From IMG/VR virus record IMGVR_UViG_3300037245_004459, positions 1-23,141 of that record: DNA of 23,141 nucleotides; one strand, given 5' to 3'. Position 1 is the stretch's first letter; every line of letters starts with the position of its first letter. The position numbers were made by a program, and so were the translations under genes. This document shows, piece by piece, positions 408 to 21,441 of the stretch. This DNA is from a virus. Below the pieces are notes generated by a model. It did no database searches, had not been told where the DNA came from, and saw nothing but the letters and a program-made list of their open reading frames with translations.

Positions 408-977
408 TTGTTAAAAATCGCATGTATTGGACAGCAATGTTCAGGTAAGACAAGTTTAGCAAAATTTTTTATTAACAAGTTCTCAGCAGTATTTCATATC
501 AAAATGGCCGATCCAATATATAACGCATTGGACGGCTTGAAACAAGAGAAACACAGAGCATTTATGCAACAGTTTGGTGACCTGGCAAAAAAACATTTCG
601 GCGAAGAAATTTTCCCGCAGATATTCGAAAGACAGGTGTTAGAAATCGAAAACGAATCCTTTGAAAAGGAAGTCGGTGAACCATTAAAATTCACAGACCA
701 AATTTTAATAATAAATGACGATGTACGTTTTGAATACGAATTGAAATATGTTAAGAAATTGGGTTTCAAGTTGTGTTCGATTATTTGTCCTGTTGAGGTA
801 CGAGCCGCCCGCGCACATGCGCAGGGACTTGACTTCATAGAGAATCATCAAAGCGAAACCGAAATTCCAAAACTACTTTACAAGGCAGATTTTGTGTTGA
901 CACGGGGTGAAATGTCAATGAAAAAACTCGGTGCTGCAGCAGATGAAATTTTAGAAAAAATAAGGGTGCAAGGATGA
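408..977 (+). CDS. Deoxynucleoside monophosphate kinase-like P-loop protein
   Basis: This 189-residue protein probably phosphorylates dNMPs to dNDPs in the cytoplasm to feed phage DNA synthesis, the role of T4 gp1. A Walker A P-loop GQQCSGKTS lies at residues 8-16. A DDVRFEYE segment near residue 104 matches the DVRFxxE motif of phage dNMP kinases, and NHQSETE followed by ADFVLT matches their H-x-SE...D-x-(V/I) C-terminal signature. The start is a TTG with GGAGGG at 399-404 just upstream; the spacing is short (3-4 bases). The next small gene overlaps its stop as ATGA. At 189 residues it is shorter than T4 gp1 (about 241). Another P-loop nucleotide kinase such as a dephospho-CoA kinase relative is possible, but the DVRF and HxSE motifs favour dNMP kinase. 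Confidence 0.72.
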   Translation: MLKIACIGQQCSGKTSLAKFFINKFSAVFHIKMADPIYNALDGLKQEKHRAFMQQFGDLAKKHFGEEIFPQIFERQVLEIENESFEKEVGEPLKFTDQILIINDDVRFEYELKYVKKLGFKLCSIICPVEVRAARAHAQGLDFIENHQSETEIPKLLYKADFVLTRGEMSMKKLGAAADEILEKIRVQG

Positions 978-11920: not shown

Positions 11921-13483
11921 TTAGTCTGTAAAAGGATTAGTTTCTTCGAGCCAGGTCCAATCTTCAACAAAATCATCAATATCTCCGAGTACACCCCAGA
12001 CATCTTCGTCCTCTTTTTTCTCAATAAACTGGTATTTGTCGTCAAACATATCCATTTCCAAGATATATGTACCCCAAAATAGTGCTGAAACAAGGTCATC
12101 GCCCGTATCTTTACCGAAAAATTTTCCGTTTTCTTCAATATATGAGCCAAGTTCCATCAAAGTACTGACATCATGTAGTTTTAATGAACCATCTTCAATC
12201 AGTTTTTTCAGTAATAAGACGGCTTTTGGCTTTGTGCCTGTCTTTTCGCCGCCGGTTGATCGAATACCAATAGCATTTGCTTTTGAACCTGAATTTACTA
12301 AGTGTTCATACTCTAAATCCCACCATAAACGGTTACAGACTGACGATCCTTCTCCATTATTTTCAACTAAGACATATGCTTCATTGTAATAAATCGCAAG
12401 CTTTCTGATAATGTCTGCGAAGTCGTAAACATCTGTCATGTTGTCATGAAATACAGCAACTTGATCCAATTTCACTGGCATTATGCTATCAACTCTGATA
12501 ACCTGAATTGCTGAGTAATTTTCTCCTGTGCCCTTCGCAGGATCACATCCTAAGACGTAGGAAGCGCCATCCTCCGGCTTCTTCCAAATTTTTAGACGCC
12601 TATTAAGGTCTCGTTGTTTAGGCTCTGTATCTTGCGATAAGATCACACCCAAACAATCAGGCGAAATAAGCGTATTTGTTGAACCAATAAATTCAACTGC
12701 AAATTCCTGAGCGAATTGGCGTTCTCCCAAGTTCTTAACTTGATCTTCGGCCCATTGCGCATCTCTGCCCGGAACTGCTTCCCAAGTGACCTTTGTCGGC
12801 GTGAATGTATTTTTTCCAATTTCTGCTTCAGAATAGATACGATGAAATATATTGAACATTCCGTTTGGTGTCGAAATGATAACAATTTTAGCAGTTTTTG
12901 ATGCTGAAATTGTCGGATAATTGGCAGACCAAAATTCTTCAGCCTGGTTTCCTGGTACGAAAGCAAATTCGTCACATACTAACAAGGTGATTGACTCACC
13001 ACGGAAAGCGTCCGGTGAAGTGGCTGAAATAATCATTTTTGAACCATTATCAAAAAGGATTCCAGTCTTTTGATATTCGAGTACGCCTGGCTTTAGCCAC
13101 ATTGGCAAACCTTCATACATTCGTTTGATACGTGATAAAATCATTTTAGCAGATGCTTCTTTATTAGAAACAATGCCTATGACTTTATCCCTATTGAATA
13201 AAGCGTACCATAAACAGTATGCACCAACGATTGTAGTTTTTCCAGATTGTCTTGACCATAATCCAACTGAATATCGGGAATTTTGCAGAGTATCTAATAG
13301 GTCGTTCTGATAGTCGTAAGGCTCAAAGAGAATTTCGCCTTGATCGGGATTAACAATTTTGATGTATTTAAGGAAGTGTTTGACATCATCCTGACACTTC
13401 ATTAAACTGTCCACTTGTTCAGTGGTGTACTCTAATTCTTCATTCGGCCGTTTTATAAACCGTTCATCATATTTTATTGGCAC
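11921..13483 (-). CDS. Terminase large subunit, T4 gp17-like packaging ATPase/nuclease
   Basis: This is the DNA-packaging motor that pumps and cuts the genome at the portal. I place the start at GTG 13481-13483 (520 residues), because the GGAGGT just upstream is its ribosome site; a TTG at 13498 would put that site inside the gene. ATPase domain: Walker A SRQSGKTT at residues 77-84, Walker B LLVCDE at 167-172, coupling motif ISTPNG near 203-208. RNase H-like nuclease: first aspartate in LGCDPAKGTG (Asp314), glutamate in VLVENNGEG (Glu374), and a late acidic pair in TGDDLVSALFWGTY. All key residues are present. T4 gp17 is longer (610). A 14-bp hairpin covers its ribosome site (13487-13520). 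Confidence 0.93.
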   Translation of the reverse strand: MPIKYDERFIKRPNEELEYTTEQVDSLMKCQDDVKHFLKYIKIVNPDQGEILFEPYDYQNDLLDTLQNSRYSVGLWSRQSGKTTIVGAYCLWYALFNRDKVIGIVSNKEASAKMILSRIKRMYEGLPMWLKPGVLEYQKTGILFDNGSKMIISATSPDAFRGESITLLVCDEFAFVPGNQAEEFWSANYPTISASKTAKIVIISTPNGMFNIFHRIYSEAEIGKNTFTPTKVTWEAVPGRDAQWAEDQVKNLGERQFAQEFAVEFIGSTNTLISPDCLGVILSQDTEPKQRDLNRRLKIWKKPEDGASYVLGCDPAKGTGENYSAIQVIRVDSIMPVKLDQVAVFHDNMTDVYDFADIIRKLAIYYNEAYVLVENNGEGSSVCNRLWWDLEYEHLVNSGSKANAIGIRSTGGEKTGTKPKAVLLLKKLIEDGSLKLHDVSTLMELGSYIEENGKFFGKDTGDDLVSALFWGTYILEMDMFDDKYQFIEKKEDEDVWGVLGDIDDFVEDWTWLEETNPFTD

Positions 13484-13486
13484 AAA

Positions 13487-13520
13487 AAATACCTCCAAGT
13501 ATTCAAACTCGGAGGTATTT
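13487..13520 (-). terminator. 14-bp hairpin overlapping the terminase ribosome site; terminator or translational switch
   Basis: Minus-strand RNA can form AAATACCTCCGAGT paired with ACTTGGAGGTATTT, 14 pairs including one G-U, with a six-base loop, followed by T to make a run of six just before the terminase GTG. The mispaired position is A-C on the plus strand but G-U on the minus strand, so the structure is best formed by the minus transcript. The right arm contains the terminase Shine-Dalgarno GGAGGT. It can therefore end transcripts from the upstream cassette, hide the terminase ribosome site, or both. Confidence 0.75.
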
Positions 13521-13541: not shown

Positions 13542-13964
13542 TTACGGGGTTTCAACTATTTTTTCAAAATCTTTCGGCTGTTGCATTATATCGCTTTCAG
13601 TCTTTTCAACAACATGTAACAATTCTTCTGAATATGCACTTTCGTTTTTTTTATCATCCAAGGCTGTTGCTGCAAAATAATTGTTTCCGTCTAATAAATC
13701 TGGAATTATTATTTCGCAACATTCAGATTTAAACGGATTATATTCGGTACCGCAAACAGGATTCCACATTTCCGGATGCTCGGATAATATATATGCCTTA
13801 TTATACTCTCCTGGGGCTTGCCCGTGGTAAATAACGTAATCTTTTAAATCCGGTTCAGTGTTCGCATCCCAGGCTAAAGTGACTGAGGCGGCTTGACTGA
13901 TTCCAACAAAAAATACCAGTAAAGTTAGATAATAAACAACTACAAACATTATTCGTTTTTTCAT
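13542..13964 (-). CDS. Secreted fibronectin type III-like protein
   Basis: This 140-residue protein starts with a clear Sec signal peptide: MKKR, then a hydrophobic core (residues 5-20) and GISQA|ASV, with cleavage likely after Ala25. The mature part is one fibronectin-III-like domain: VTLAWDANTEPDLKDYVIYHG is the classic W...D.DL..Y.(V/I)Y pattern, and NNYFAATALDDKKNESAYSEE is the matching YYF.VTA.D..GNES..S end. Three cysteines (PVCGTEY, ECCEI) could form disulphides in the periplasm or outside. The C-terminal 25 residues are charged. It is the last gene of the cassette, nine bases after spoVR with AAGGAGG. Being exported, it is not an obvious virion part; a host-envelope role is an inference. 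Confidence 0.78.
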   Translation of the reverse strand: MKKRIMFVVVYYLTLLVFFVGISQAASVTLAWDANTEPDLKDYVIYHGQAPGEYNKAYILSEHPEMWNPVCGTEYNPFKSECCEIIIPDLLDGNNYFAATALDDKKNESAYSEELLHVVEKTESDIMQQPKDFEKIVETP

Positions 13965-13973
13965 TTGTCCTCC

Positions 13974-15575
13974 TTAAATCATATTGCTGGTATATCGACT
14001 CGTGCAATTAGATACCATATCTAATGTTGCGGGTTGTTTTCCGTCAGGATCATCAACTTTCCCTCTCTCTTCAATTTTCGGGTCTTTATTATGATCCTCT
14101 GCAACCATGAAAACCTTGGTTTTGTTAATAACGGTTTCCAGAATGACCGGACGCCCCCAGACTCGATGCAGATGTTTCAAAGTCTCAATTGCATATTTCA
14201 TCAACAAATCGGAGCCGGCCCATTTGTGCTTCAACATCAATACACCGGCATCCTTATAATTTATGTTGACTATTTCAACTTGCGGAATATGACTGTGAGC
14301 GAAACTTGCCACAATCAGTTCCCGGATTTGATCGAAGTCATGCTTTGTCCTGACAACATCAATTGACTGATAATTATCCTTGACAACGAAAATATACATT
14401 TTCAATTTATCAATCAATTCCGGAGTTAAGAAGTCCTGCATAAAAAACCAGTCTGTATATGTTTCGACAATATCAAACATTTTTTGGATTCCGGCACCGG
14501 CTTTCGTATCCCACTTTTCCTTGATTTTATAGTCTTCGCAGTCGTCATATTCGCGGCCGTGTAAACCTTTATCCCACCGTTCGACAATATCCTTCCACAT
14601 ATCACAGCCTATCAGATATGGATTCATTGACGTTTTTGACATCGCCTGAACCAAGGAATTTGAATAATTAAATTCAGCATATTCTAAATCCGTAATCATA
14701 TCTTCTTCATAAAGCCGTTTAACAAGACGTTCATGCCAGAATGAAGCAAATCCTTCATTCATATATTTGGTTTTCATTTGAGGCCAAAAATACTGTCCCT
14801 CAATTCGTAAAATTTCCAGAATATCTTTTTGCCATTCTTCTAATGATACAGAATGATCAATAACATATCTTAACAAGTCCGCGGCTGGTTCAACCGGTGT
14901 GCGTTGATCGATCAGGCGTTTCAACTTCATATTATAAAGGTTGATATCTGTTTTCATTTTATCGGCTTCATCGTCACTTTCCAGAACATCCGCAAATTCG
15001 GATTTTTTAACACGATTCATTTTCCGCCGTTCCATTTCAAAAACCCGGGCCTTTTTGACAAGTTCAATTTCCGTGTCAAAAGGCGACGAATGTAATTGCA
15101 GGGCATGACCGGCGTCCACGATTGCTTCAACTTCATCGATGCCATAATTTTGTTCATACTTTGTAAATCGTTTATTCGCGGCGTCCATTACCTGAATAAT
15201 GTCTTTGCGGGTTTCCTGAAAAAACTTATTCATTGTAAAAAAGGCCACGTGGCCGATAACGTGCGCAATGACCAAAATCTGTTGACCGATTGTATTTGAC
15301 TTCATGAGATATGCCCGACTTGGATCAGAATTTATGACAACTTCAAGCGGCAGACCATCATGGACTTGCTCATTTATTGTGCGAATCCGTTCATAATCAC
15401 GGCCATATTTCCAATTCGAAATGTTGCCGGGAATACGATAAGCCATAATTTCAAACATCTTTTGATCAGGAATTATGTCCCATTCAATATCGCAGAAAAC
15501 CAGACCTTCTTCTCTGGCCATTTCACATAGACGTTCTTCAATTTTTTTAAGTCGGGCTAAATCTTTTTCTTCCAT
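13974..15575 (-). CDS. SpoVR/YcgB family protein
   Basis: This 533-residue protein (E. coli YcgB is about 510) is a full-length SpoVR-family member. Signatures are PDQKMFEIMAYRIPGNISNW near residue 36, GRDYERI, LEVVINSDPSRAYLM, LVIAHVIGHVAFFTMNKFF (His105 and His109), GIDEVEAIVDAGHALQLHS (His157, His162), YFWPQMKTKYMNEGFASFWH (near 262-281) and MNPYLIGCDMWKDIVERW. The conserved histidines and acidic residues suggest a metal site, but the family's activity is not established. In Bacillus SpoVR affects spore cortex formation, and in enterobacteria YcgB goes with YeaG/YeaH. Here it follows the DUF444 gene by 11 bases with AAGGAG, so it belongs to the prkA-yeaH-spoVR operon. No key residue looks lost. 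Confidence 0.93.
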   Translation of the reverse strand: MEEKDLARLKKIEERLCEMAREEGLVFCDIEWDIIPDQKMFEIMAYRIPGNISNWKYGRDYERIRTINEQVHDGLPLEVVINSDPSRAYLMKSNTIGQQILVIAHVIGHVAFFTMNKFFQETRKDIIQVMDAANKRFTKYEQNYGIDEVEAIVDAGHALQLHSSPFDTEIELVKKARVFEMERRKMNRVKKSEFADVLESDDEADKMKTDINLYNMKLKRLIDQRTPVEPAADLLRYVIDHSVSLEEWQKDILEILRIEGQYFWPQMKTKYMNEGFASFWHERLVKRLYEEDMITDLEYAEFNYSNSLVQAMSKTSMNPYLIGCDMWKDIVERWDKGLHGREYDDCEDYKIKEKWDTKAGAGIQKMFDIVETYTDWFFMQDFLTPELIDKLKMYIFVVKDNYQSIDVVRTKHDFDQIRELIVASFAHSHIPQVEIVNINYKDAGVLMLKHKWAGSDLLMKYAIETLKHLHRVWGRPVILETVINKTKVFMVAEDHNKDPKIEERGKVDDPDGKQPATLDMVSNCTSRYTSNMI

Positions 15576-15586
15576 TTTGAATCTCC

Positions 15587-16906
15587 TTAGATTTTTCTTG
15601 AAGTTTTATCAAATAACATATGTTTCAGAGCCGGATAAACATGTTTTCGATCTTTAATCACACCCAGCAAAAAGTGTTCATCGTCATTTCTGAAAAACTG
15701 GGTTCCTTCGGTCTCGGTTTTTCTAAATTCCCAGGTTTTCTGAATTTCCTTCATTAATGTATGGTTCGACCAACCCCATGCCGTGTTGTCTGGCTTAATT
15801 TCAAGATATGCTAACATATTTACCTTTTTGTCAAGCATTTCCTTCATTTTCGGAACTGTGGATTTTGGATCCCAGTCCTCGCCATCTGAATTATAAACAC
15901 AATAGACATTCCACGATTCCATTGGATATTCAGTTTCAATGATATAATTTGCTAAGTCAAAAGCCGAACCACAATCCGTGCCGCCTGACTCGCCTTTTTG
16001 GAAAAAGGTTTCTTCATCAACCACTTTGGCTTCGGTCGTATGCGTTATGAATTTTATTTCAACATTATCATAACACTTTTTGAGAAATTCAATCAGCCAG
16101 AATAACATTGACCGGGCCAGATATTTTTTGTCCCTTGTCATTGAACCAGACACGTCCATCATACAAATGACCGCTGCCTGAGATTGATATTCCATATCGG
16201 GCTCGATTTGCTTATATCGCATATCGTCATCCTCAATGAAAACACCCGGTTCGTCGCCGTTCAATTTTCCGTGTTTAATAACTTCAATAGCATCATTGAT
16301 ATCACCGTGCGCCTGCATTAAAGCCCTGTTTGCGTCATTCTCTGAACAGCCTGTATCTTCCATTATTTCGTAACAGTAACAGACCATTCTTTTAACGGCT
16401 TCCATCATTGTGCGTTTTTTGTGAAGTCGCGGCATGATACCTTTTTTTGTAATTGTATCAAATTTCCAGCCGGCCGGGACAAGTTGCTCTTTGCGAGTTT
16501 TTTCTTCAATCCACGGCAGTCCCAAGTCTTCAAACATTATTTTAATCAGATAATCAATATCAACTTCCGCTTCCATATAATCGGTGCCTTTACCCTTTTG
16601 GCTGGGTTTACCGTCACCGTCTCCCGGTGACTTGTCTTTACTGTCAATAATGTCACCTGGTTTGCCCTTACCTTGGCCAGCGCCGCCGGCTTGCCCGTCA
16701 TTTGAGCCGTGCACAAAACGATAATCCTTCAAACCACGGACGGGAATCCTGATTTTCCGACCCCGTTTTTTCGTGATAATTGATTCTTCTGAAATGACAT
16801 CCTTCATATTTTTTCTGATAGAATCGTCGATTTTTTCTTGGTGCCGTTCAGCATCCTTTGTACCTTTATCTGACAAATCCCAATCATCATGTTGTACAAT
16901 AGCCAT
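15587..16906 (-). CDS. DUF444/YeaH (YhbH) family protein with von Willebrand A domain
   Basis: This 439-residue protein (E. coli YeaH 427) is the usual partner of PrkA. The N-terminus is charged, followed by a G/K-rich linker near residues 68-108 and the conserved YLIKIMFEDLGLPWIEE segment. The C-terminal half is a von Willebrand A domain: MIDAS motif MMDVSGSMTRDK (Asp251, Ser253, Ser255), then VEIKFITHTTEAKVVDEETF, GESGGTDCGSAFDLA and a YNSDGEDWDP segment equivalent to SDGDNW in YeaH. Residues about 178-213 (YEIMEDTGCSENDANRALMQ and on to IEVIKHGKL) read like a UBA/TS-N three-helix module, which I do not recall in E. coli YeaH. The gene starts one base after the 52-residue gene's stop, with AAGGAG. 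Confidence 0.92.
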   Translation of the reverse strand: MAIVQHDDWDLSDKGTKDAERHQEKIDDSIRKNMKDVISEESIITKKRGRKIRIPVRGLKDYRFVHGSNDGQAGGAGQGKGKPGDIIDSKDKSPGDGDGKPSQKGKGTDYMEAEVDIDYLIKIMFEDLGLPWIEEKTRKEQLVPAGWKFDTITKKGIMPRLHKKRTMMEAVKRMVCYCYEIMEDTGCSENDANRALMQAHGDINDAIEVIKHGKLNGDEPGVFIEDDDMRYKQIEPDMEYQSQAAVICMMDVSGSMTRDKKYLARSMLFWLIEFLKKCYDNVEIKFITHTTEAKVVDEETFFQKGESGGTDCGSAFDLANYIIETEYPMESWNVYCVYNSDGEDWDPKSTVPKMKEMLDKKVNMLAYLEIKPDNTAWGWSNHTLMKEIQKTWEFRKTETEGTQFFRNDDEHFLLGVIKDRKHVYPALKHMLFDKTSRKI

Positions 16907-16907
16907 A

Positions 16908-17066
16908 TCATTTCTCCTTTATGAATCCAGGTTTATTTTTAAGTTTATCTTTTTCATTCAAGACTTCGATTTTATCCAACCAAGGTTTGATACTTTTGAT
17001 ATCCTCAAATTCAGATGAAACAACGGTTTTCTTTTTATTGTTAAATGTTAAAACCAATTTTATCAT
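16908..17066 (-). CDS. Small hypothetical protein (52 aa) within the prkA-yeaH operon
   Basis: The start at 17064-17066 is chosen because GGAGG lies five bases upstream; the open frame extends to 17213, but that part overlaps prkA and has no ribosome site. The product MIKLVLTFNNKKKTVVSSEF continues with a lysine-rich, amphipathic C-terminal half (IKPWLDKIEVLNEKDKLKNK). The first 15 residues look like a beta hairpin. No family is recognised. The stop is one base from the DUF444 start, so the two are probably translationally coupled. A small adaptor or regulator of the kinase module is possible from position only. Confidence 0.65.
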   Translation of the reverse strand: MIKLVLTFNNKKKTVVSSEFEDIKSIKPWLDKIEVLNEKDKLKNKPGFIKEK

Positions 17067-17090
17067 TTCCGCCTCCGGTTGTAAAGTGAA

Positions 17091-17130
17091 AAAAGCCCGA
17101 ACCCGACATTCATTATGGGCCAGGGCTTTT
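17091..17130 (-). terminator. Terminator-like attenuator between prkA and the rest of the cassette
   Basis: On the minus strand AAAAGCCC (17123-17130) pairs with GGGCTTTT (17091-17098), with a further CCC/GGG inside the loop (17117-17119 with 17102-17104). A run of six T follows (A-run 17089-17094). It starts about 25 bases after the prkA stop and lies just before the ribosome site of the 52-residue gene. It would make prkA transcripts more abundant than those of yeaH and spoVR. Confidence 0.6.
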
Positions 17131-17154
17131 CCTGATGGAAACCCGATTTCAGGA

Positions 17155-19113
17155 TCAGGTTTTGCGGAGTATTTCTCCGACAAATGAAAGCAACATGTTC
17201 GCACAATGCTCACAATAGCCCTTATCTAACAGGGTTTTGAAGGCCCGGGTGCGGGATGCTTTCTTTTTAGGATCGGTGTTGACCGTATTGGCAATTGACA
17301 AGTTGACAACATTTTTCAAGTCGCTCATCAACTTCTTTTCAATCGCCTCGGCGAGCGGCTTATATGAAGTAAATCTAAACTCTTCTTTTTTCTCCAGCGC
17401 CGCAGATTTGTGAACATAAATGCCGTTCCTAAAAGTCTCTTTTGATGCTTCAGGCACGCCGATCAAGTCTTCAAGTGAGCGCATCAATTTTTCATCCGGG
17501 TTACTGAACTCGCCGGTAATTGAATCCTCAATCTTTTCCTTTTTGCAGAAAGCATCGCAATTAATCATGTATCTGTTGAATAACTCGTTTGCCTGTTCAT
17601 CGTAAGCATAAAGGAAAGCCCGGTTCACTTCTTTTTTGGCAACTTCCTTATACTCGCTGGCGACTGAATGTTTTTCACCGGTCAACAGGTTGTTAAAGTT
17701 TTTGATATCTTCATCCTTGATACCGATATGATGATCAAAATTGTTTCTCATTGCCCGAATCAAGTCAATCGGGTTGATACACTTTTTGGATTCCTTCGCA
17801 CCAAGGCAGACGTTCATTGCGTTGATGATAAAACGAGGTGAGATACCGGACATTCCTTCGCCGTTTCTTTTGCCTTCTTCGATCAATGCCTTAATATCAA
17901 TTTCGTTTTTCTTAAACTCATTTGTCACCTCACCGTTATACAGTTTCATCTTTTGAACCAGATTTGAAACTTTGGTGGATTTTGTCAGGCGGGACAATAC
18001 GGCAAATTCCGCGGCGACCTTTAAAGTATGTGGGGCAATGTGAATATCCCGGAAGTCGGATTCATCGATCATTTTTTCGTAAATCTTTATTTCATCATTC
18101 ACCCGAAGATTCCAAGGGACTTTGACGACATACATTCTATCGTGCAATGCCTCGTTTTTCTGGTCGGCCCGGAAACTGTCAAATTCCGTCTGATTGGTGT
18201 GTGACAGAATCAGCGTGTCAACATAAATCTGCGGGAAGCCAGGTGATTTGATAAGTTGTTCCTGGGCGGCCGAAATAAGAACATAATGAAACTTGATATC
18301 AGCTTTCAAAATTTCAATATATTCAATCATGCCACCGTTTGCGACTTGCAGTTCACCATCGAACTGATAAGCGCGGGGATCGGTTTCACCGTAACGGGCG
18401 ATTTTCGACATATTGACACGACCAATCAATTCGGTCACGTCCTGGGACTTGGGATCACTGGGTTGAAATGTCCCGATGCCGATGCGTTTTTGTTCTGACA
18501 AGTGAATTTGGTGTACAGGAATTTCATCCCATTTCACGGCGCCCTTTTCATTGGTGAAATTTTCTTCAATTTCCCGTTGACAATGAGGACACAGATGTCC
18601 CTCAATTTTAACGCCGAGTTTTTCTTCCCAGAACGGGCGATCTTCTTCAGGAATTGCGTGAAGGGGTTCTTCATTCAACGGGCAGCCCTTGATAACGAAT
18701 TTTTCAACTTCATCCCGTTCAAGGCCTCTTTTAAACAGAGCGGCGATTGTGGATTTGCCAGATGAAACAGGGCCAACCATCATAAGGATGCGTTTGCCGG
18801 TTTCTGTACGGCGGGCGGCAGCCTTCATGAAACGCATCAGGTCGTGAAGCGGCTCCAGGGTGCCGAAAATTTTGCCTTTGAAAAAATTGTAACTGACTAA
18901 ATCTTCATAGCCACGGGTTTTCAGATTATTGTCAATTTCTTCCGTGCCGAACTTCATGATCATGTTATAAACACGGCCGGGCGCGAAATTCGCAATAACC
19001 GGTGTATCCTGAACTTTTTCTAAATAGTCCAGAACTGTACCTTCCCAATTTGCAACATTTTTTGTTTTGCGCTGCGACAAAATAATATCTCTGAAATCTT
19101 TGTTTTCCATCAT
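17155..19113 (-). CDS. prkA: PrkA/YeaG family serine protein kinase (AAA+ and kinase domains)
   Basis: This 652-residue protein (E. coli YeaG 644) is a full-length PrkA. The N-terminal AAA+ domain has Walker A GPVSSGKS at residues 114-121, followed by FVIKGCPLNEEPLHAIP and a CPHCQR knuckle (Cys175, Cys178). Then come the highly conserved IGTFQPSDPKSQDVTELIG and YQFDGELQVANGGMIEYIEI segments, QIYVDTLILSHTNQTEFDSF and RMYVVKVPWNLRVNDEIKIY. The C-terminal region has the PrkA-type helical/kinase-like part (GISPRFIINAMNVCL, PIDLIRAMRNNFDHHIGI). PrkA kinases act on stress and sporulation regulators in bacteria; the phage target is unknown. The start is the first of two ATG codons, six bases after AAGGAG. 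A good sigma70-like promoter lies upstream. Two sampled 60-base lines (18361-18480) are 52-53% G+C, above the neck and tail genes. Confidence 0.95.
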   Translation of the reverse strand: MMENKDFRDIILSQRKTKNVANWEGTVLDYLEKVQDTPVIANFAPGRVYNMIMKFGTEEIDNNLKTRGYEDLVSYNFFKGKIFGTLEPLHDLMRFMKAAARRTETGKRILMMVGPVSSGKSTIAALFKRGLERDEVEKFVIKGCPLNEEPLHAIPEEDRPFWEEKLGVKIEGHLCPHCQREIEENFTNEKGAVKWDEIPVHQIHLSEQKRIGIGTFQPSDPKSQDVTELIGRVNMSKIARYGETDPRAYQFDGELQVANGGMIEYIEILKADIKFHYVLISAAQEQLIKSPGFPQIYVDTLILSHTNQTEFDSFRADQKNEALHDRMYVVKVPWNLRVNDEIKIYEKMIDESDFRDIHIAPHTLKVAAEFAVLSRLTKSTKVSNLVQKMKLYNGEVTNEFKKNEIDIKALIEEGKRNGEGMSGISPRFIINAMNVCLGAKESKKCINPIDLIRAMRNNFDHHIGIKDEDIKNFNNLLTGEKHSVASEYKEVAKKEVNRAFLYAYDEQANELFNRYMINCDAFCKKEKIEDSITGEFSNPDEKLMRSLEDLIGVPEASKETFRNGIYVHKSAALEKKEEFRFTSYKPLAEAIEKKLMSDLKNVVNLSIANTVNTDPKKKASRTRAFKTLLDKGYCEHCANMLLSFVGEILRKT

Positions 19114-19155: not shown

Positions 19156-19184
19156 ATTATATCAAAGCGAGTGCTCTTTGTAAA
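19156..19184 (-). promoter_or_regulatory. Sigma70-like promoter for the prkA cassette
   Basis: On the minus strand TTTACA (19179-19184) is followed after exactly 17 bases by TATAAT (19156-19161), with one mismatch to the full consensus. It lies in the 89-base gap between terS and prkA, about 43 bases before the prkA ATG. It would allow host RNA polymerase to transcribe the cassette independently of late phage promoters. Confidence 0.8.
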
Positions 19185-19202: not shown

Positions 19203-19661
19203 TTATGAATCTCCTTCAGCGTTATGCCGGTCATTTATAAGTCGTAAAACATCTTCCCTTGACGCGACGATTAAATTTTGTTGTGGCGGTCTTCTACCTT
19301 TTAATTCCTTTATTTCAACTTCACGTTTTTTTAATCTAACAAGTGATACCCGAATATCAAGATATTTATTGTAATTTGTGTCATCCATTAATACCTTCGA
19401 TGCCGTGGTAATCGAATTTATGATATTCCCGGCAACTTCAACCATTCTGGCAGAAAAATTCCCGTTCTCCATTTCTTCTTTCACTCTATCAAGTATTGTG
19501 TTCGCTGATTCGATATTTTGCCGTAACACTTCCGGGTCTTCGTTTTCTTTTTTCCATTCTAATTCAAATGGATCAGATTCTAATTCAACAATTTCTGGTT
19601 CAATGGATTCTGGCTCTAAACCAAGATCATTTTCCAAAGAACTCCTATCTAATTCTGGCAT
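19203..19661 (-). CDS. Terminase small subunit, T4 gp16-like
   Basis: This 152-residue protein (T4 gp16 is 164) is expected to assemble as a ring that recognises DNA and stimulates the large terminase. The layout matches gp16: an acidic N-terminal segment (DLGLEPESIEPEIVELESDP), a central helical oligomerisation region starting VLRQNIESANTILDRVKEEM and GNFSARMVEVAGNIINSITT (gp16 has VRRNMHFQQQMLMDAAK and RHMEVFATLMGQMTT), and a C-terminal QNLIVASREDVLRLIND matching gp16 [20 protein letters not shown]. In T4 gp16 and gp17 overlap; here 5.7 kb of inserted genes separate them. AGGAG precedes the ATG, and both a sigma70-like and a near-consensus late promoter lie upstream. Confidence 0.78.
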   Translation of the reverse strand: MPELDRSSLENDLGLEPESIEPEIVELESDPFELEWKKENEDPEVLRQNIESANTILDRVKEEMENGNFSARMVEVAGNIINSITTASKVLMDDTNYNKYLDIRVSLVRLKKREVEIKELKGRRPPQQNLIVASREDVLRLINDRHNAEGDS

Positions 19662-19691: not shown

Positions 19692-19720
19692 ATTATATAA
19701 TATTTTGTGATATTTGTAAA
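19692..19720 (-). promoter_or_regulatory. Sigma70-like promoter for the small terminase gene
   Basis: TTTACA (19715-19720), a 17-base spacer and TATAAT (19692-19697) read on the minus strand. Hexamers and spacing are the same as in the prkA promoter, and 22 of 30 bases over the whole element are identical to it, including TTTACAAA and CAC in the spacer. Confidence 0.72.
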
Positions 19721-20220: not shown

Positions 20221-21441
20221 TTAATCAGGTAAGTCAGTGAGTCTAACCTTTCGGTAATACTCTTTAGCACCGAATATGTGACTATGAATGCCATAACGGC
20301 TCATAAGTCCAATTGCAGGCTGGAATGAATCTTCAAATGTTGCTCTTGAAGCCAATAATTGAATATACGGCAGATAAATAATGCCAGTATCGTATTCACT
20401 CGGACCCTTGTAACCAACCAAAAAGGAAGGTATCAATTGGAACGTATCACGATATACAGTGATTCGACCATCCAAACTTCCAACACGGGAAACACCAACT
20501 GCGGCAGTATTCACATTACTTGGAACTGGTGCGATTGTAAATGATGCCATTGACTCGAATATTGCTATTGAGTAAGGATCACCGACAACCCAGTTACCAG
20601 AGCCACGTCTTGTGGTACGAGCGATATCCTGAGCACGTCTTAGGATGAAATGATATAATTCACGATATCTTTCCATTTCCCAGCGACCACCAGGCACGCC
20701 TGTTCCAGAAGCGGCTACATAACTCCAGTTGTAATCATAACCTGTACCACCTGCAACTACTGTGGTGTCGATCTGTTCAATCAGTTCCCTATCGATTTCA
20801 GCGGTAATTTCATATGCCAAAATATCCATCATTTCTTCTTCAAGGTTAAGACCGTGCATTGCTTTCAAATCTTGTGCAACCTCTAAAGACCAACGACTTC
20901 TTAGCTTACGAGTTTGTGCTTCAATCTGGGCTTTTTCAACAGTTAAGTTGACTTCACGAATGGCTGTACCGTTTCCGATACCAAGACCAATGTCACCGCT
21001 GGTGTTCGATCCAAATCCTTCTGCAGCAGATGTTGCGAATGATCCAGAATAACTGGAATCAATTGTGTTGTAACCAAGTTCTGTGGTATTTGCTGTATAA
21101 TCACCGTTGCTGTTGCCAGCGCGGAAACGTAATGCAAATGCCAAACCGACGGGGCCGGTCATTGGCTGAACACCGACTAAATCATGTGCTACTAATTCAG
21201 GAAATGTACGTCTAACCATTGGAACAGCGATTTTGTGAAACATACCAGAAGTTGCGTAATTGGCACTACCAAGAGCGTCAATATTTGCGCCGCCTGCTGC
21301 GGAATATCCTGTTGTTTCCATCAACCAATTGTGCTGATTTTCAAGCATAATTGCGGTTGATTTCCGAATGTTCATATTCTTAATTTCATTACCTTCGTTA
21401 ATCACTTCGTCCCACTTTTTAAGTAAGGTATTAATGTCCAT
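20221..21441 (-). CDS. Major capsid protein, T4 gp23-like
   Basis: This 406-residue protein (T4 gp23 is 521) forms the head lattice. It has the gp23 signature after the N-terminal arm: AVPMVRRTFPELVAHDLVGV, then QPMTGPVGLAFALRFRAG, matching gp23 VRRAIPNLIAFDICGVQPMNSPTGQVFALRA. Later segments (ELIEQIDTTVVAGG, RRGSGNWVVGDPYSIAIFES, YKGPSEYDTGIIYLPYIQLL, SRYGIHSHIFGAKEYYRKVR) also follow the gp23 pattern. A prohead protease would probably cut at NWLME|T (after Glu42), removing the N-terminal piece as in gp23; an INE|G also occurs at Glu16. It is shorter than gp23, perhaps through a reduced insertion domain. AGGAGG lies about ten bases before the ATG. Confidence 0.93.
   Translation of the reverse strand: MDINTLLKKWDEVINEGNEIKNMNIRKSTAIMLENQHNWLMETTGYSAAGGANIDALGSANYATSGMFHKIAVPMVRRTFPELVAHDLVGVQPMTGPVGLAFALRFRAGNSNGDYTANTTELGYNTIDSSYSGSFATSAAEGFGSNTSGDIGLGIGNGTAIREVNLTVEKAQIEAQTRKLRSRWSLEVAQDLKAMHGLNLEEEMMDILAYEITAEIDRELIEQIDTTVVAGGTGYDYNWSYVAASGTGVPGGRWEMERYRELYHFILRRAQDIARTTRRGSGNWVVGDPYSIAIFESMASFTIAPVPSNVNTAAVGVSRVGSLDGRITVYRDTFQLIPSFLVGYKGPSEYDTGIIYLPYIQLLASRATFEDSFQPAIGLMSRYGIHSHIFGAKEYYRKVRLTDLPD

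Follow-up and report, generated by a model that had tools for sequence, protein, structure and literature searches.

The bacterial prkA-yhbH-spoVR operon, known also as yeaG-yeaH (ycgB), is widespread, and starvation induces it strongly. Its function is unsettled, kinase, protease and neither having all been claimed, and so is the biochemical activity of the trio itself (PMC13001217). In E. coli, yeaG and yeaH mutants have a common nitrogen-starvation phenotype and adapt poorly, the genes behaving as a unit (PMC4664914). Proteins of the three families also occur in phages. They are encoded close together in the Thermus phages phiYS40, TMA, phiLo, MN1 and Lalka, in some cases near terminase or head genes, and have already been annotated one by one (serine kinase, SpoVR). 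The Ralstonia jumbo phage RsoM2USA has annotated SpoVR (ORF28) and PrkA (ORF30) genes with one ORF between them (PMC8504454), and in viromes of an oxygen minimum zone, spoVR was reported to be more abundant than any other sporulation-related gene (PMC8940887). The open-licence literature searched yielded no description of a T4-like lineage in which the complete operon is a core early-type unit, and nothing on these three genes as a phage module, on their repeated capture as a whole or on inteins within them.

The window analysed here is a complete virus record of 23,141 bases. It derives from a T4-like myovirus, as judged by the gp23 capsid, T4-type terminase and contractile tail genes (sheath, tube), all of which were found. 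Transcription of the minus strand runs from the gp23-like capsid gene through probable terS, prkA, a 52-aa ORF, yeaH (DUF444), spoVR, a secreted FN3-like ORF and terL to the tail genes, with the following coordinates:

20221..21441, minus strand: major capsid protein, gp23-like (Pfam Gp23, 308 bits).
19203..19661, minus strand: probable terS, terminase small subunit (phrog_445).
17155..19113, minus strand: prkA, probable AAA+ ATPase of the PrkA/YeaG family, 652 aa (Pfam, Walker A K120, AlphaFold).
16908..17066, minus strand: small ORF of 52 aa in the prkA-yeaH gap.
15587..16906, minus strand: yeaH/yhbH (DUF444), vWA-type with a full MIDAS motif, 439 aa (Pfam DUF444).
13974..15575, minus strand: spoVR/ycgB with HxxxH and NEGFA motifs, 533 aa (Pfam SpoVR, SpoVR_C).
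13542..13964, minus strand: FN3-like secreted protein of 140 aa between SpoVR and TerL, accessory cargo outside the trio.
11921..13483, minus strand: terL, terminase large subunit (Pfam Terminase_6N and 6C).

The trio proper occupies 13974-19113 of the minus strand, head to tail (from 19113 to 13974), between the probable TerS and TerL genes, and each of its genes has a Shine-Dalgarno sequence at its start. The original prediction of a complete, intact bacterial-type trio between the terminase subunits of a real phage was thus borne out, with full-length ORFs, motifs kept and flanking virion genes, among which TerL, the gp23-like capsid protein, tail sheath and tail tube were identified. The range it gave, 13542-19113, does contain the trio; it starts at 13542 because it takes in the unrelated 140-aa FN3-like ORF. 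This ORF gave no match in the family search and has no homologue among the relatives. The SpoVR-TerL junction in which it lies (13542-13964) is a variable cargo site, which in one relative (L083:5231-9884) holds DnaJ-like, methyltransferase, weak PilX-like and Kelch-like ORFs. As to TerS, the match of the window protein to phrog_445 is weak (24 bits), and 13 of 19 homologues match this family. Small ORFs resembling the 52-aa ORF (16908..17066) are present in some near relatives, and inspection by eye of the PrkA-YeaH gap pointed to free-standing homing endonuclease-like ORFs (L005:11220, L007:6331) and a macrodomain-like ORF (L104:6614). Close to the contig edge, a deoxynucleoside monophosphate kinase gene lies on the opposite strand (window 408-977); phiYS40 has a gene of this kind as well, which there adjoins PrkA.

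All three trio proteins score far over the Pfam cut-offs: PrkA with 366 bits for AAA_PrkA and 222 bits for the PrkA C-terminal family (gathering cut-offs 25), YeaH with 323 bits for DUF444, SpoVR with 338 bits for SpoVR and 40 bits for SpoVR_C. The NCBIfam equivalog cut-offs were missed by PrkA (296 bits, cut-off 576), YhbH (347, cut-off 468) and SpoVR (230, cut-off 679). Residues of the trio conserved from E. coli to Clostridia are kept in the window proteins. The Walker A lysine K120 of PrkA is intact and invariant in every sequence compared, and together with 60 further near-invariant columns it is common to E. coli and Clostridia. The MIDAS of YeaH (D251-x-S253-x-S255, T310, D341) is likewise intact, its residues being invariant in 81 of 81 sequences, and so are the conserved residues H105, H109, E150, E274 and H281 of SpoVR. 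The window trio has the families, the conserved residues and also the gene order of the bacterial operon (as in Clostridia, Thermomicrobium, Legionella and Mesorhizobium), and differs from it by its place in a phage late region, its phage-type promoters, the inteins of its relatives and a PrkA that is at best 45-47% identical to the bacterial PrkA sampled.

A PrkA scan of viral contigs retrieved 76 loci, 45 of them in the window lineage (40 metagenomes, 64-76% identity). The order TerS-PrkA-YeaH-SpoVR-TerL is complete in 34 of these 45; in the remaining 11, at least one of the five genes is missing from the fetched stretch, mostly at a contig or match end. Two loci (L020, L034) have a complete trio and neither TerS nor TerL nearby. 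The entire five-gene block was seen inverted with respect to the adjacent virion genes in L023, L029/L078 and L079/L201. A scan seeded with TerL, independent of the trio, gave 35 lineage loci, and the module, SpoVR included, is carried by all 19 that have at least 8 kb upstream, whereas TerL relatives at 36% identity are without the trio. How often phages carry the trio, a point on which the original prediction did not commit itself, can be answered as often: with a SpoVR profile, at least 533 viral-contig stretches encode SpoVR, and among the 79 SpoVR-seeded loci that were kept, nearly all those with long enough flanks have the complete trio. Among 50,697 deposited phages, all three families were matched only in Thermus phages and uncultured huge phages, with partial matches in Enterobacter phage LAU1 (PrkA and YeaH) and Bacillus phage CM1 (DUF444-type). 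Since every one of these matches is below 60% identity, the 50,697 phages include no cultured member of the window lineage. As judged by these scans, the window lineage is a widespread uncultured T4-like family, of which the trio is a standard, core gene set.

Other phages carry the same genes in other arrangements. In the Thermus phages the order is YeaH-SpoVR-PrkA, PrkA forms a separate, highly diverged clade, and the trio does not lie between terS and terL. A second group of viral contigs (lineage B, L047-L071) also has the complete trio on phage contigs, again in the order YeaH-SpoVR-PrkA, with a PrkA sister to that of other Clostridia and no window-type TerS or TerL homologue within the fetched flanks. 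RsoM2USA, absent from the phage collection searched, differs in that its closest homologues are proteobacterial. In L072 and L073, from another viral lineage, a tRNA-His guanylyltransferase gene lies within a few kb of the trio.

We placed these copies in a quick maximum-likelihood tree with SH-aLRT support, built from 98 PrkA proteins. The window-lineage PrkA proteins form a single clade (SH-aLRT 100) near Bacillota and Thermomicrobium, so that the phage copies do have a clade of their own, as the original prediction had proposed to check. Those of lineage B form one clade (99) beside other Clostridia. Thermus phage PrkA is also one clade, whose long branches leave its exact placing unsure, and the copies of other huge or unclassified viruses group with proteobacterial PrkA. 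These are at least four separate phage groups, and the operon was therefore probably captured by phages at least four times. Within the window lineage, the bacterial gene order is retained and the operon has a single origin; it may have been taken whole by an ancestor of the T4-like lineage, and the explanation of which this capture forms part has, in our estimate, an even chance of being right. Window-lineage PrkA is about 45-47% identical to the closest bacterial PrkA sampled, from Bacillota, donor sampling having covered Bacillota and a few plasmid-borne copies only. A recent transfer from a sequenced host was rejected, the best match in one genome pattern scan being 38% and sampled Bacillota reaching 45-47%. 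In two Bacillota genomes (G006, G042), PrkA comes as two pieces separated by 4-17 kb; the break, at about residue 300, is near the HTN motif, the site of one phage intein, and possibly reflects an insertion or a split gene.

Between near relatives, dN/dS of the trio is 0.02-0.19, similar to that of TerL and MCP, which indicates strong purifying selection on each of the three genes. In some relatives, all three are also interrupted by inteins with LAGLIDADG endonucleases. PrkA has three sites, namely SQD, the HTN motif and a position following the ELLK/EILK motif, and YeaH has one, in the SGGT MIDAS loop. In SpoVR the site is NEGxA, used in three phage lineages. Inteins tend to persist where residues cannot be lost by the protein, and those of the trio would thus mark functional centres and a long residence in phages. 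Inteins were also seen to break TerL in L027, L037, L187 and L190, at up to 2 sites each; between some TerL halves there are frame changes and stops, as in split inteins or an endonuclease in another frame.

The following transcription signals were predicted in the window:

19692..19720, minus strand: promoter of the same class as that of prkA, before the TerS gene.
19156..19184, minus strand: sigma-70-like promoter TTTACA-N17-TATAAT, 71 bases before prkA (11/12 consensus).
17089..17130, minus strand: hairpin and T-run just 3' of prkA, a putative partial terminator.
17057..17085, minus strand: candidate weaker promoter-like site TTTACA-N17-TAAAAT before yeaH (10/12, extended -10).
13484..13520, minus strand: hairpin and T-run ending the module before terL.

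Across the lineage, TTTACA-N17-TATAAT stands before prkA in 9 of the 44 unique upstream regions and before terS in 12 of 41, as compared to a background of 50 in 14338 windows; none was found before terL, capsid, scaffold or sheath genes. In two large relatives, this promoter class recurs genome-wide, with 19 and 18 copies where the reversed control has none. The T4-type late motif TATAAATA shows another distribution, being present before terL (36/55), sheath (10/10) and terS (23/41) for a background of 4%, and before prkA, yeaH and spoVR in 1, 0 and 0 of 44-46 regions. Counted over whole genomes this motif is in no excess over the reversed control, and it is informative only by its position before late genes. 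The late motif of the window terL is imperfect, TCTAAATA. A hairpin with a T-run is found in the SpoVR-TerL gap in 41 of 51 cases (5 in shuffles) and in the PrkA-YeaH gap in 17 of 46 (1 in shuffles), the shuffles being mononucleotide ones. A generic terminator scan with a loop limit of 8 did not flag the longer-loop hairpins of the module. All these promoter and hairpin counts come from related sequences and are hence not independent.

The hairpin at 13484..13520 carries GGAGG in its 3' arm, directly before the GTG start of terL (13483). A hairpin lies near the terL start in 29 of 54 unique upstream regions, with an SD-like 3' arm in 19 of the 29, and in 13 of the 19 terL regions where hairpin and late motif are both present, the motif starts at -3 to +17 of the hairpin start. 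In T4 genes e and soc, such hairpins silence read-through transcripts, and late transcripts that start inside the hairpin are translated. The prkA promoter, the hairpin before terL and the late promoter of terL together suggest that the trio is an early or middle transcription unit insulated inside the late region. The 'structural operon' of the original prediction is thus correct as regards the location among virion genes; a promoter class and a terminator of its own seem to serve the module itself. The full-strength prkA promoter is present in only part of the lineage, and terS bears both promoter types in some relatives; members without the full prkA promoter may rely on read-through from terS. 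The partial terminators after prkA suggest unequal expression of the trio genes.

PrkA has been proposed as a Ser/Thr kinase, and the original prediction described the locus as a stress-kinase module. The listed fold matches of the PrkA AlphaFold model (pLDDT 85.5), searched as a whole, are AAA+ proteins. The top match, at Z 14.5 over 239 residues and 4.2 A, was NorQ from its complex with the vWA domain of NorD. A sequence search also found solved PrkA structures (entries 9xip, 9xiq and 9xir). NorQ/CbbQ are thus nearest, yet many other AAA+ proteins score 13. The NorQ match extends to residue 486, reaching the part assigned by Pfam to the kinase domain, and it takes in the GxSPR segment, which we take, going by MoxR proteins, to be the AAA+ sensor 2. 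The proposed catalytic lysine, K426 in E. coli YeaG, lies four residues past the invariant arginine of GxSPR. It is absent from the lineage, with N in 38 and D in 2 of 40 PrkA proteins. Its loss as a phage-specific change was rejected since the bacterial sister clade has Asn too. The K426A variant of YeaG is defective (PMC4664914); given the proximity of K426 to the AAA+ invariant arginine, this defect need not mean kinase activity. B. anthracis PrkA, moreover, showed next to no kinase or protease activity in vitro (PMC13001217). With the AAA+ fold matches, the Asn or Asp at the K426 equivalent in 40/40 and the B. anthracis result, the description as a stress-kinase is not supported. The 'kinase' label is probably wrong, the model pointing to an AAA+ ATPase of MoxR type, nearest to NorQ/CbbQ. 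The MoxR-type pairs NorQ-NorD, CbbQ-CbbO and BchI-BchD likewise combine AAA+ and vWA proteins, and the complete MIDAS of YeaH is as expected for a vWA partner. In contrast to these pairs, PrkA is extended by a long C-terminal part, SpoVR comes in as a third partner, and YeaH belongs to a separate vWA family (DUF444).

For SpoVR (model pLDDT 86.2), Foldseek gave no significant match. The ten best VIA-align matches were gluzincin M1/M61/M2/M32-type peptidases or peptidase-like proteins (Z 6.7-11.1). When SpoVR was compared to M1 peptidases by hhalign, HVIGH was aligned to HExxH and NEGFA to the motif of the third zinc ligand, at an unconvincing significance (P 0.25 and 0.016). Both histidines of HVIGH are invariant, and the catalytic Glu of HExxH is missing, Val being in its position. 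SpoVR may therefore bind metal without being a standard peptidase.

Taken together, these results lead us to favour, with a confidence that stands midway between doubt and belief, an explanation in which the phage owns a functional copy of the operon, encoding an AAA+/vWA remodelling machine that would be made early and support infection of starved hosts. Going by the anatomy of the trio, a host-type sigma-70-like promoter would drive it before the late genes are transcribed, a hairpin terminator would close the unit, and a T4-type late promoter would turn on terL downstream independently. As the trio seems to have early-type switches of its own, the phage probably uses it to manage a stressed host cell. 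PrkA, probably as a ring, would be the AAA+ motor, similar to MoxR/NorQ, with YeaH as its vWA (MIDAS) adaptor and SpoVR as a metal-binding, peptidase-like third component. Jointly they may remodel or hand over cellular proteins, as in bacterial starvation, and an early phage-made set could keep a starved, slow or stationary host productive with no dependence on host stress regulators. The benefit in starved hosts is here an analogy with the bacterial homologues only, and a Rhizobium etli prkA mutant in which a stress phenotype was not clear (PMC3188799) counts against it. Sporulating hosts, also invoked in the original prediction, received no direct support, the operon being found as well in non-sporulating E. 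coli, Legionella and Mesorhizobium.

Other explanations were weighed against this one. Position suggests as the main rival a role in virion assembly or DNA packaging, with the AAA+/vWA machine acting on the terminase or capsid and hence located between terS and terL. The TerS-TerL position is indeed constant within the lineage, the TerS-to-TerL block is inverted as a single unit in some relatives, and the trio is near terL or portal genes in the Thermus phages Lalka8 and phiYS40. However, the promoter class and the terminator set the trio apart from the late genes, L020, L034, L184 and L196 have the trio without TerS or TerL nearby, and no clearly recognised packaging gene lies beside it in the scanned lineage B and C loci. 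Starvation and sporulation, moreover, are where the bacterial homologues act, and we consider packaging rather unlikely. Comparably unlikely is interference with the host, the phage copies poisoning or competing with host PrkA-YeaH-SpoVR and thereby blocking growth arrest, sporulation or dormancy. Their divergence, both from the nearest sampled bacterial PrkA (about 45-47%) and from the NCBIfam equivalogs, would be consistent with such a role, and the predicted early expression would fit a takeover function. But catalytic and metal-site motifs that are all kept, together with low dN/dS, are unexpected for a dominant-negative version, and poisoning would need just one inactive subunit.

An anti-phage or counter-defence module, for superinfection exclusion or protection from host defence, seems improbable: although AAA+ plus partner-protein modules are frequent in defence systems and the SpoVR-TerL junction of relatives holds variable cargo, PADLOC gave no meaningful match, the trio is a uniform core set whereas defence cargo varies, and the bacterial copies are stress-response genes. 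An assembly chimera of a bacterial and a phage contig, the artefact named in the original prediction, has a negligible probability. The G+C of prkA is slightly higher (up to 0.46), but the same synteny recurs in dozens of independent contigs, which excludes a chimera, and one pattern scan of bacterial genomes revealed no near relative (best 38%). Finally, a broader reading, which we put forward tentatively and below an even chance, sees in the trio a general, portable AAA+/vWA/metallopeptidase-like machine, captured repeatedly as a whole, with an early core function here and insulated by a hairpin that would hide the ribosome site of terL. If this portable-machine reading is true, the phage copies show that the three proteins are one functional unit.

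Exactly these three genes appear to have been captured repeatedly by unrelated phages, and loss of a single member is almost nil in the loci examined. Such whole captures would constitute natural evidence that the trio proteins work jointly and that infection benefits from what they do. The inteins indicate loops that would be functionally untouchable, and the Thermus phages, which have laboratory hosts, make the question of the trio testable. For phage ecology, the explanation we favour, an early phage-owned copy of the starvation operon, would put a name to a common host-physiology module of uncultured T4-like phages.
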